Source: Parasaccharibacter apium
Lineage (GTDB): Bacteria; Pseudomonadota; Alphaproteobacteria; Acetobacterales; Acetobacteraceae
Direction of reading: 5' to 3'
Length of the DNA stretch: 64,000 nucleotides
Assembly: GCF_002592045.1 (NCBI RefSeq)
Contig: NZ_MEJG01000004.1
Location: 151,940 to 215,939, forward strand
The notes below the pieces were generated by a model that had not been told where the DNA came from, searched no databases, and was given only the letters and a program-made list of their open reading frames with translations. Shown in pieces: positions 47,985 through 51,929 of this stretch (position 1 is its first letter; every line of letters starts with the position of its first letter). A program made the position numbers and the translations under genes.

Positions 47985-49295
47985 ATGACCGCACATAACA
48001 TTACTTGCCCGCACTGCCATGAGACGTTCTCGCTTGATAATGCAGGCTATGCTGACATTGTTAAACAAGTGCGCGATAAGGAGTTCTCCAAGGCCCTGCA
48101 TGAAAAGTTGGAAGCTGCTGCCCAGGAGGAACGTCTTGTTGCCGAGCGCGCTAAGCTGGCCTCCGAGCGTGAGATGAATCAGGCCCTTCATGAGCGTGAT
48201 GCGAAAATACAAGCCCTTAAAAACCAACTTGAGCGACATGAAGCCGACCAACAAGCCGCCGCCCGCCTCGCTGAAGCAGAAAAGAAGGCCCAGCTACAAG
48301 AGGCTGTGCAAGCTAAGGAGCGGGAAATCCATGCCCTCCAAGCCAAGCTATCAGCAAGCAAAACAGAGCAGGAGCTTGCTATTACAAAGGCGGTGGACGC
48401 GATTCAGAAGGAACGTGACACCCTACAAAACACCTTAAGTGAAGCTGAACTCAAAAGCCGCCTCGCCACCACGCAACTAAAAGAGCGTTACGAGTTGCAG
48501 CTAAAGGACCGTGACGACCACATCGAGCGGCTAAAGGACATGAAGGCCCGTCTCTCCACCAAAATGGTTGGGGAAACGTTGGAGCAGCATTGCGAGGTGG
48601 AGTTTAACCGCTCCCGCGCTATGGCCTTCCCGCGCGCGTATTTTGAGAAAGATAATGACGCACGCTCTGGCAGTAAGGGCGATTACATCTTCCGCGATGT
48701 AGATGAAAGCGGAACGGAAATCCTCTCCATCATGTTTGAAATGAAGAACGAAAATGACAACACCGCCACCAAAAAGAAGAATGAAGATTTCCTCAAAGAG
48801 TTAGACAAAGACCGCACGGAGAAGAAATGCGAATATGCCGTGCTGGTCTCCCTGCTAGAGCCAGAAAATGAACTTTATAATACGGGGATTGTAGATGTCT
48901 CACATCGCTACCCGAAGATGTACATCATCCGCCCGCAATTCTTCCTCCCCATTATCTCCCTCCTCCGCAACGCGTCCACCAATGCGCTAACCTATAAGAG
49001 AGAACTAGAACTCACACGCCAGCAAAGCATTGATGTCACCAATTTTGAAGAGAAGCTGGAGACATTTAAAAACGGCTTCTCCCGCAATTACGACCTCGCC
49101 CATAAGCAGTTTAACAAAGCGATTGAGGAGATTGATAAATCCATCTCCCACCTTCAGAAAATCAAAGAAAACCTACTGAGTTCGGGCAACAACCTCCGCC
49201 TTGCCAATGACAAAGCCCAGGACGTCACCATCAAAAAACTCACACGCGGCAATGCAACAATGAAGGCGCAATTTGCGGCTCTGAAGGGAGAGTGA
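47985..49295 (+). CDS. DUF2130 protein: zinc-ribbon, coiled coil, nuclease-like domain
   Basis: 436 aa. N-terminal CPHCHETF zinc-ribbon-like segment, a long charged coiled coil (about 45-180), then the DUF2130 domain from about 185. In the latter, [20 protein letters not shown] followed by EMKNE has the D...E-x-K spacing of PD-(D/E)XK nucleases. A second coiled coil (about 345-410) follows. Role unknown; the architecture suggests nucleic-acid binding and cleavage. Directly upstream of the CRISPR-like cassette. Confidence 0.82.
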
Positions 49296-49306
49296 TGGGT
49301 TTCATG

Positions 49307-49341
49307 AAGATAGTAGAATATTTTATACGTTGACCTCTTTC
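49307..49341 (+). promoter_or_regulatory. Self-target site: AAG PAM plus protospacer-like sequence in promoter
   Basis: AAG at 49307-49309 is followed by 32 bases (49310-49341) that match the spacer at 49638-49669 at 18 of the first 22 positions. Mismatches are at 6, 15, 18 and 19; the remaining 10 do not match. AAG is the classical type I-E PAM, and positions 6 and 18 are among those flipped out in Cascade-bound duplexes. The site overlaps the -35 box, so binding would block transcription. Confidence 0.72.
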
Positions 49342-49358
49342 ATGGAAGGAGCTATCTT
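49330..49358 (+). promoter_or_regulatory. Sigma-70-type promoter of the small peptide gene
   Basis: TTGACC (49330-49335), 17-base spacer, TATCTT (49353-49358). The predicted transcript starts near 49365, just before the 13-bp hairpin. Good match in hexamers and spacing. Confidence 0.7.
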
Positions 49359-49372
49359 TATTCCATGGTAAA

Positions 49373-49402
49373 AGAACTGGTGAGCCGCCGCTCACCAGTT
49401 CT
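49373..49402 (+). repeat. Perfect 13-bp hairpin in the 5' UTR of the small peptide gene
   Basis: AGAACTGGTGAGC (49373-49385), loop CGCC, GCTCACCAGTTCT (49390-49402). No T-run follows, so it is not a terminator. It would lie at the very 5' end of the transcript and could stabilise the RNA or control translation. Confidence 0.75.
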
Positions 49403-49433
49403 ATGCCTCCATTCCACAGATACGGAGATTATC

Positions 49434-49589
49434 ATGAAGTATGACGCACCTCACTCTAACATAAAAAGCTGGTTACATACCAGTCTTTTCATACTAACTA
49501 CCGTTCTCCCTTTTCTCATCAACCACCCCGCGGATGAGAAGCAGATCGATATTTCTGCAGTAATCGCGATATCCATCCAAAAAATGTAA
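49434..49589 (+). CDS. Small hydrophobic peptide, candidate CreT-like toxin
   Basis: 51 aa: a polar N-terminus, one hydrophobic segment (WLHTSLFILTTVLPFLI, about 12-28), then an acidic-polar tail and a second mildly hydrophobic end. No family recognised. The ATG at 49434 has GGAG 6 bases upstream. The frame also opens at an ATG at 49365, exactly at the predicted transcript start, giving a leaderless 74-aa form whose beginning would be coded by the hairpin; less likely. Its promoter is matched by the neighbouring spacer, which is why a toxin of a CRISPR-repressed pair is proposed. Confidence 0.6.
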   Translation: MKYDAPHSNIKSWLHTSLFILTTVLPFLINHPADEKQIDISAVIAISIQKM

Positions 49590-49608
49590 TCACTTTTTAG
49601 CCGTTCCT

Positions 49609-49698
49609 AAGTTCCTCGCCTTTGCGGGGATGAACCGATAGTCGAATATTTCATCGGTTCTATGGAAGAACGTTCCTCGCCCTCGCGGGGATATACGG
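49609..49698 (+). CRISPR. Two-repeat type I-E-like mini-array (CreA-like guide)
   Basis: Repeat 1 (49609-49637) and repeat 2 (49670-49698) are 29 nt each, 23/29 identical, and start 61 nt apart, leaving a 32-nt spacer (49638-49669), exactly type I-E geometry. Each has the GTTCCTCGCC...GCGGGGAT core with CCTCGC/GCGGGG stem and repeat 1 ends in the 8-nt handle ATGAACCG. By recall repeat 1 agrees with the E. coli I-E repeat at 22 of 29 positions. Both are degenerate and there are no further units or cas genes in the window. No separate promoter was evident. Confidence 0.72.
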
Positions 49699-49729
49699 AA
49701 AAAGCCACTCTATAACGGGGTGGCTTTTT
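49699..49729 (+). terminator. Rho-independent terminator directly after repeat 2
   Basis: AAAAAGCCAC (49699-49708) / GTGGCTTTTT (49720-49729), then TCTTT. It starts at the base after repeat 2, so promoter, hairpin, peptide gene, mini-array and terminator form one unit of about 365 nt. Confidence 0.88.
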
Positions 49730-49805
49730 CTTTACCCTTTATACCCCCATACCGCGAACACCGCTTGACGCTATCCGCGTGAGACAGTATCAACAGCCGC
49801 AGATT

Positions 49806-49895
49806 GGATGGGTGTCCGAGTGGTTTAAGGAACTGGTCTTGAAAACCAGCGTGCGTGGAAGCGTACCGTGGGTTCGAATCCCACCCCATCCGCCA
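49806..49895 (+). tRNA. tRNA-Ser (TGA)
   Basis: 90-nt class II tRNA: acceptor GGATGGG/CCCATCC, anticodon stem CTGGT/ACCAG around CTTGAAA (anticodon TGA), long variable arm, T-arm GGTTCGAATCC, encoded CCA. Confidence 0.96.
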
Positions 49896-51322: not shown

Positions 51323-51823
51323 TCAGTGAGGCAGGCGATGAAGCAGAATCAAAGCACCTGCCTTCCGGTCTGCGTCAGACAGTGGGGCATCCCCATCAGT
51401 CCCATCCCGCTCTATGCTTCCAAGATAGCTGCCATCCCCTCCCCTTAAAGTTCCATCCTTCTCAATACGTCCAGCATAGCTACCGCCTTCACCTCTTACG
51501 GTTCCATCCTCCTCGATATTCCCAACATAGCTACCGCCTTCGCCTCTTATGGTTCCATCCTTCTCGATATTCCCGGCATAGCTGCCACCTTCTCCCCTTA
51601 TGGTTCCATCCTTCTCGATATTCCCAGCATAGCTGCCACCTTCTCCCCTTATGGTTCCATCCTTCTCGATATTCCCAGCATAACTACCACCGGGCCCCCG
51701 TATAACGCTGATCTGCTGTACATGCCCCAAAGGCACGGACTGACCATCATATGCGCCAGCAACACCCGGCATACCGGCAACACCCAGCCACCCCATCACC
51801 ACTAAAATACCGGTGTAATTCAT
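51323..51823 (-). CDS. Secreted protein with six 17-residue repeats
   Basis: 166 aa from the ATG at 51823; the frame runs open to 51919. A signal peptide (TGILVVMGWLGVAGMPGVAGA-type) precedes a short linker, then six tandem units of the form IRGEGGSYAGNIEKDGT, and a short C-terminal tail LSDADRKAGALILLHRL. The repeat looks like a beta-hairpin unit with a central Gly-x-Ile-x-x-Asp-Gly; I recognise no named family. No anchoring motif. Relative of the protein at 50272. Confidence 0.72.
   Translation of the reverse strand: MNYTGILVVMGWLGVAGMPGVAGAYDGQSVPLGHVQQISVIRGPGGSYAGNIEKDGTIRGEGGSYAGNIEKDGTIRGEGGSYAGNIEKDGTIRGEGGSYVGNIEEDGTVRGEGGSYAGRIEKDGTLRGGDGSYLGSIERDGTDGDAPLSDADRKAGALILLHRLPH
51398..51703 (-). 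repeat. Six tandem 51-bp coding repeats
   Basis: Six contiguous in-frame units of 51 bp. The first three (promoter-proximal) are nearly identical at DNA level, the last three more diverged, suggesting recent expansion at one end. Such arrays change length easily. Confidence 0.92.
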
Positions 51824-51929
51824 CACAAACCGCCTTAAATGAAAAATCTTTTCCATATGCCTCACTACACCGTATCTCGTGGCAACTGCGTTACAACGCC
51901 ATGAAGACGCCGTAACCATGCATGCTAGC

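Follow-up and report, generated by a model that had tools for sequence, protein, structure and literature searches.

Is the pair of CRISPR-like repeats that stands beside a small-peptide gene at positions 49307-49729 of the window, i.e. of the whole 64,000-nucleotide stretch of DNA analysed here, part of a module in which a crRNA-like guide keeps a toxin gene silent? The original prediction, made from the letters alone, read it as a type I-E CreTA-like module, and those of the proposed checks that were run support this reading. As judged from its sequence and from those of its relatives, the segment is quite probably a type I-E CreTA-type module, which would silence a predicted toxin (CreT) by means of a guide RNA (CreA) and Cascade. 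The source genome (1.85 Mb) belongs to Bombella, a genus of acetic acid bacteria of bees that includes honey-bee symbionts. In the window, the module site has a DUF2130 gene on its left and a tRNA-Ser gene on its right and lies 14 kb from the nearer end of its draft contig, not adjacent to cas genes; by eye, integrase-like ORFs downstream of it in two relatives make the tRNA-Ser gene look like an island insertion site. The features of the locus, all on the forward strand, are the following:

47985-49295 (+): DUF2130 gene, left flank (PF09903, E 5e-91)
49296-49667 (+): cassette of promoter, peptide gene, psiR1 and most of the spacer, with another allele in the conspecific genome G060 (from alignment)
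49307-49309 (+): AAG, PAM-like trinucleotide
49310-49341 (+): predicted Cascade target (protospacer), identical to the spacer at 18 of its first 22 nt
49330-49358 (+): predicted module promoter, TTGACC-17-TATCTT, with the -35 box at 49330-49335
49373-49402 (+): hairpin in the 5' leader of the predicted peptide mRNA (the 95-nt leader folds at -37.0 kcal/mol, with z -5.9 relative to mononucleotide shuffles)
49424-49427 (+): Shine-Dalgarno-like GGAG
49434-49589 (+): creT-like ORF of 51 aa with a hydrophobic segment, predicted toxin (no Pfam match, two database proteins)
49609-49637 (+): psiR1, degenerate I-E repeat with intact 8-nt 5' handle ATGAACCG
49630-49690 (+): 61-nt mature CreA guide predicted from the place of the repeats and the rules of I-E processing, provided that Cas6e cuts each hairpin at its 3' base
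49638-49669 (+): psiS, 32-nt spacer
49670-49698 (+): psiR2, hairpin retained, last 8 nt degenerate (5/8)
49699-49729 (+): intrinsic-terminator-like hairpin common to the modules (from alignments; a simple terminator scan did not list it)
49806-49895 (+): tRNA-Ser(TGA) gene, right flank

A CreTA system is expected to have matching type I effector genes in its genome, and a complete I-E operon (cas3-cas8e-cse2-cas7-cas5-cas6e-cas1e-cas2e) is indeed encoded on another contig, in agreement with the predicted location of the module away from cas genes. The same separation is found in the relatives (genomes are designated by G numbers, G000 being the window's own): in these draft assemblies, cas genes and module are on different contigs in seven of the eight genomes with a module, and in G001, where both are on one contig, the module (24.5 kb) and the cas genes (1162.7-1167.2 kb) are more than 1.1 Mb apart. 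A position inside or beside the cas locus, which was taken as the usual place of creTA and not as part of its mechanism, is therefore not what is seen here. The array that follows the cas operon has ATGTTCCCCGCCCCCGCGGGGATGAACCG as its commonest repeat, and the comparison of this repeat with the module revealed the same 8-nt handle as in psiR1. The Cse2 (Cas11) protein of this genome is encoded by a 357-aa ORF (L016:13836-14906) with two family-matched stretches, by eye a tandem duplication.

The guide unit was re-read and recomputed, and the coordinates predicted for the two repeats (61-nt period) and for the spacer between them proved right; the 5' handle and the AAG before the target were likewise read directly and recomputed. 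Compared with the array repeat, psiR1 of the window agrees at 8/8 handle positions, and psiR2 at 18 of the first 21 nt and at 5 of the last 8. Over seven modules (G009 not being counted again), psiR1 keeps 5-8 and psiR2 3-5 of the 8 handle letters, with equal numbers (5 and 5) in G060. The hairpins are retained in all aligned modules, and in an alignment of six modules that leaves out G008 and underlies all stem pair counts, the psiR2 stem is paired in 42/42 cells and 4 of the 15 pairs of the terminator-like hairpin (helix 3) have changes on both sides. Covariation of the stems is weak, the count of pairs changed on both sides being reached by 129/500 shuffles and the covariation score by 11/500. 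The way in which the two repeats are conserved would fit the division of labour described for two-psiR creA genes (PMC8501985), with the 5' handle coming from psiR1 and the 3' hairpin from psiR2; in the other modules it holds as a trend. Since psiR1 and psiR2 have only 15-23 of 29 nt in common, they are not the near-identical repeats of an ordinary CRISPR array, and the spacer matches the DNA upstream of its own module where an ordinary array would have foreign-derived spacers; such degenerate repeats around a spacer-like sequence outside arrays, a feature of CreTA, are present in 8/11 Bombella genomes.

The spacer is partly complementary to the PAM-flanked promoter region of the adjacent gene, as in CreTA, the promoter being a predicted one and the PAM set used in the scans being that of E. 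coli type I-E, which may not be that of Bombella. Recomputation reproduced base for base the 18 matches among the first 22 spacer nt from position 49310, with mismatches at 6, 15, 18 and 19; the target overlaps the -35 box TTGACC (49330-49335) of the predicted promoter, as had been proposed. Matches were scored over the read positions (17 of the first 20 spacer nt) and over the seed (positions 1-5 and 7-11), all seed positions being matched in the window. None of 549 I-E array spacers reaches 10/10 seed positions with a PAM in the upstream region of the window's module, and its 15/17 read positions are reached there by 0/380 array spacers and 0/4000 shuffles. The 12-mer ATAGTNGAATAT occurs at two sites in the 1.85-Mb genome, namely the target and the spacer itself. 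In a stricter promoter scan of 49200-49820, TTGACC-17-TATCTT was the sole site, which alone is weak as shuffles average 0.7 sites, and a looser scan gave three weaker candidates besides it. Antisense regulation was considered and rejected, because psiS is in the same sense as the transcript and the target is upstream of the predicted start.

Modules were then sought in 11 Bombella genomes by DNA search, by DUF2130 search and with a covariance model built from six modules, with at most 150 candidates scored per genome. The unit was found in eight genomes (G000, G009, G060, G001, G003, G004, G005 and G008), with seven different spacers of 32 nt (five genomes), 20 nt (G060 and G005) or 33 nt (G004). 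The modules reach 101-130 bits, with array copies coming next at 70 bits, and the module of G008 was found by the covariance model though absent from its training set. The site is between DUF2130 and tRNA-Ser, except in G008 (between ffh and tRNA-Ser) and in B. apis, G004 (between ffh and DUF2130), these positions being assigned partly by eye.

A same-strand PAM-adjacent match upstream of its own module was found for 8/8 guides, with AAG in six cases and ATG in two; ATG is the PAM reported for the I-E CreTA of Citrobacter rodentium in the accessible part of that study (PMC12055562). Over the 17 read positions, the scores are 15 (G000), 15 (G009), 13 (G060), 16 (G001), 14 (G005), 12 (G003, the weakest match), 14 (G004) and 15 (G008). 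Among the 380 array spacers, one reaches the score of G003 and none that of the seven other modules; of 4000 shuffles per module, 2 reach the score of G060, 1 that of G005 and 24 that of G003, with 0 for the others. By the seed alone, 0-3 of the 549 array spacers do as well as the own spacer, depending on the module, and the combined seed p over seven distinct modules is about 1e-12, these tests not being fully independent because some modules look related (G060/G003; G004/G008). Moreover, in 7/7 distinct modules the own spacer beats the spacer of every other distinct module in its own region. Position 6 is mismatched in 6/8 modules versus 3/80 seed cells (Fisher 4e-6; with G009 dropped, 5/7 versus 2/70, Fisher 2e-5), and positions 6 and 12 are not read in a published I-B CreA. 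Spacer and promoter region thus change together and not independently, as had been expected of the pair; a partial exception is G009, which has the spacer of the window but a target mismatched at seed position 2. The other seed mismatches are at position 9 in G001 and G005. A sigma-70-like site with 17-nt spacing, of a kind that is common by chance, is present in G000, G009, G001, G005 and G003, with its -35 box at +17 to +27 of the target. In G060 and G008, the TTGAC-like box is found only well beyond the downstream side of the target, other promoter candidates overlap the target, and it is uncertain which promoter would be blocked.

These results bear on the reading of the locus as a decaying two-repeat array with a self-derived or coincidental spacer and no function. 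The repeats are degenerate and one seed position is lost in G009, as such a relic would have it; nevertheless, seven different re-matched forms are not to be expected of a random relic, and the seed matches of all eight guides upstream of their own modules, the mismatches at position 6 and the retained hairpins leave this reading very little probability. In the CreTA-type reading, a single transcript from the 49330 promoter would cover the peptide gene and the guide and end at the shared hairpin, and since this one transcript would read both, the module would repress itself. Cas6e would free the CreA guide, which would carry Cascade to the promoter of the CreT gene, where Cascade would sit over the -35 box, bound mainly through the seed and for that reason too little for cleavage by Cas3. 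On failure of Cascade (cas loss, anti-CRISPR), the predicted toxin would be made and growth would stop. The module would act in trans, away from cas, with guide and target exchanged between strains as one cassette.

As for the nature of the toxin, both elements predicted after the promoter were recovered: folding gave a stable 95-nt leader, and the 51-aa ORF lies at 49434-49589. An in-frame ATG at 49365, about at the predicted transcription start, would give 74 aa. ORFs of 48-73 aa that follow a leader hairpin and a ribosome-site-like sequence were identified in eight genomes (seven of the modules, not that of G004, plus G007), with hairpin z values of -2.2 to -5.9. By eye, the leader hairpin of the window (49373-49402) and the anticodon arm of the adjacent tRNA-Ser both have GAACTGGT, and the leader hairpin of G003 has GGAACTGGT too. 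Grouping by eye places the peptides of G000, G009, G001, G005, G008 and G007 in an A-type family with a common pattern (in the window MKYDAPHSNIKSWLHTSLF...), and the peptides of G060 and G003 are alike on the C-terminal side. Taken together, and with G009 dropped, the hydrophobic segments exceed what composition predicts (combined p 5e-6), though singly not significantly so in G001 (p 0.43) and G008 (p 0.12), and a membrane-active peptide is only a prediction from this hydrophobicity. A Pfam search with three of the peptides gave no match, hence no KilA-N domain as in CrePA, and a protein database search with the window peptide gave two.

It is somewhat more likely that the toxin is this hydrophobic peptide than that it is an RNA. 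A CreTA-like module with an RNA toxin, in which the ribosome site and the rare codons of the ORF would tie up a scarce tRNA such as tRNA-Ile(CAU), the peptide being irrelevant, is on the whole unlikely, with evidence on both sides. In its favour, (i) ATA accounts for 17/47 Ile codons in the seven distinct toxin ORFs (G009 dropped) versus 10/137 in ten window genes (p 8e-6), and AGA plus AGG for 6/11 Arg codons, with no enrichment of A-ending codons in fourfold families (p 0.14), (ii) codon 10 is ATA in 5/6 A-type ORFs, G005 being the exception, (iii) leader hairpins precede all eight ORFs, (iv) there is no clear purifying selection on the peptide, as divergence is much the same at all three codon positions in most ORF pairs, and (v) the tested CreTs of Haloarcula hispanica, Halobacterium hubeiense and Acinetobacter act as RNA, as far as the accessible parts of these studies report (PMC8501985, PMC10097628). 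However, the Bombella ORFs have 48-73 codons and not 6-11, their rare codons are seldom consecutive, and the further rare codons ACT, TCG and CAC are likewise raised, as would be seen in any gene that is not adapted to its host. The hydrophobic segments also speak against an RNA toxin, as does the only other experimentally tested I-E CreT that was found, that of C. rodentium, which requires translation according to the accessible part of that study (PMC12055562).

The module can next be followed through strains. The DUF2130 genes of the window's genome and of G060 (B. saccharophila, same species) agree at 1288/1308 bases, and psiR2 and the hairpin are identical, whereas the promoter, the peptide gene, psiR1 and the spacer differ along their whole length. 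In the alignment of the window with G060 and G009, the stop codon of the DUF2130 gene is the left border of the differing block, and the only syntenic BLAST match in G060 is a 73-bp stretch to the right of the cassette. The cassette is nevertheless common to the window and G009, another species, at 98%. Because the block differs from that of a conspecific genome yet is common with G009, guide, promoter and peptide gene appear to move as one unit between strains.

B. dulcis (G007) is the only one of the 11 genomes without Cas8e and Cas6e, and the only one without Cas7e among 10 searched (G060 not included). In this genome, psiR1 and psiS are gone and TGTACA stands where its relative G001 reads TTGACA; ATG and the target start CTAGCGCA are kept, together with an intact 52-aa ORF and a weaker promoter-like site (8/12 versus 10/12). 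This disarming in a genome without these cas genes would fit an addiction toxin, as indirect evidence from a single case.

The 549 array spacers, taken from Bombella array stretches, were also scanned against the module loci. One spacer in the second I-E array of the window's genome (G000 C2 206430-206461; L162, L037, L045) is identical at 32/32 positions to the toxin leader and ribosome site of G060 (L019:1232-1263), in a match that is preceded by CAG, is the sole exact one among the 549 spacers and is seen in several loci carrying that cassette. At up to 3 mismatches this spacer is present in 2/11 genomes, once each, and a search of IMG/VR gave no exact match to it. Weaker array-spacer matches, with 3-6 mismatches, are preceded by ATG, ATG, GCG and AAA, and a PAM for Bombella was not obtained from the 549 spacers; once the exact match is set aside, no spacer comes closer to a module region than 9 mismatches. 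The exact match suggests that a lineage of the window's species may once have encountered the rival cassette and kept a piece of it as a spacer.

A broader interpretation, which we hold only tentatively and at somewhat below even chances, is that throughout the genus the site between DUF2130 and tRNA-Ser holds rival addiction cassettes as alleles of one locus, each with its own toxin and guide, which would use the host Cascade in trans, spread by homologous exchange and be hunted by arrays, and that in two alleles the Cas6e cut would strip the toxin message of its stop codon as a second, post-transcriptional lock. Indeed, in G060 and G005 the ORF crosses psiR1 and has its stop codon at spacer nt 2-4, and we infer that the toxin message would lose this codon if Cas6e cut at psiR1.

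Some Bombella genomes may do without the cassette. Cas7e, Cas8e and Cas6e are encoded in G002 (B. intestini) and G006, in which no module was found among the 150 candidates scored per genome, a number that keeps the absence from being proof; at the locus, G002 has a hairpin remnant only. Since both genomes have I-E genes without a module having been found, loss of the whole cassette is probably tolerated. In B. apis MRM1 (G004; L053/L060), the mini-CRISPR is upstream of DUF2130 and has an AAG-flanked self-match 62 nt before psiR1; no toxin ORF was recognised in the 62 nt between target and psiR1, and this guide perhaps represses only itself or DUF2130. Outside the genus, the covariance model was run on 200 evenly drawn Acetobacteraceae genomes with stricter filters and 17 candidates scored per genome; the three genomes matched were all Bombella, in a sample with at least four Bombella and with a model that is maybe too Bombella-like.

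The self-matching mini-CRISPR of B. apis with no recognisable toxin and the life of B. intestini without a module at the site would both suit a guide through which Cascade regulates a small, non-toxic membrane protein, a regulatory use of Cascade akin to that of CreR. This is improbable, as fast-changing orphan peptides that vary with the guide between strains, and disarming in the sole genome without Cas8e and Cas6e, better fit an addiction toxin, and the seed 12-mer has no other genomic site. A CreR function proper, i.e. regulation of cas genes by a mini-CRISPR guide serving repression, as CreR is described in the accessible literature, was rejected: in 20 kb around cas, including the 0.9 kb before cas3, there is no site with at least 12 read or at least 9 seed matches to the spacer of the window.

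Among known systems, as described in the accessible parts of the publications, the preferred reading, a self-repressing CreTA with a peptide toxin, is closest to the type I-E CreTA of C. rodentium, which has a translated small-ORF toxin, needs Cascade and not Cas3, and whose guide partly matches a PAM-flanked site (ATG there) on the toxin promoter (PMC12055562). The C. rodentium module is between cas3 and casA, with creA on the opposite strand, one repeat-like and one spacer-like segment and a 96-bp ORF, whereas the Bombella modules are away from cas, on the same strand as the toxin, with two psi-repeats, a terminator-like hairpin and allelic cassettes, and with what is probably another peptide. 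The I-B CreTAs of H. hubeiense and H. hispanica share the seed (1-5 and 7-11) and autorepression, and that of H. hubeiense also a two-psiR creA in operon with creT and AUA codons in the toxin, but they are archaeal and beside cas genes, with a six-codon RNA toxin in H. hubeiense (PMC8501985). The I-F CreTA of Acinetobacter is bacterial, with two psiR, a 20-nt psiS as in G060 and G005 and position 6 unpaired; unlike the Bombella modules, it lies within the cas locus and has a divergent creA and a 33-bp mini-ORF RNA toxin (PMC10097628). CrePA likewise combines a crRNA-like antitoxin with a protein toxin, but a different one, typically with KilA-N (review, PMC12737573), whereas the three Bombella peptides searched have no Pfam match. 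The accessible open-access literature yielded no CreTA from Bombella or Acetobacteraceae, nor one that lies apart from cas genes, and the main text of a survey of CRISPR in B. apis and relatives (PMC12282179), in the part available, does not mention a toxin or CreTA. As a translated-toxin I-E CreTA is already known from C. rodentium, what appears new here is limited to the placement in trans, the occurrence of allelic cassettes, an I-E layout with two psiR on the same strand and a peptide family of its own, and the array spacer directed at a rival allele.

Within a single genus, these modules offer naturally varied guide/promoter pairs on which co-divergence, exchange of cassettes and disarming upon loss of cas genes are testable. 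They suggest that a place in the cas locus is not required of CRISPR addiction modules, which scans confined to cas neighbourhoods would then miss. They also raise the possibility that such modules, besides guarding CRISPR, compete with one another as mobile alleles. If the toxin lock, here a likely silencing, is true, loss of CRISPR would be costly to the cell.

Two further features of the surroundings were recorded by eye. A small protein with tandem repeats (GGSYAGNIEKDGT...) is encoded near the module (51323-51919, minus strand) and resembles repeated DNA in relatives, and tyrosine-integrase-like ORFs are present downstream of the tRNA-Ser gene in B. saccharophila (L057:8131-9360) and after the tRNA gene in B. 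dulcis (L026).
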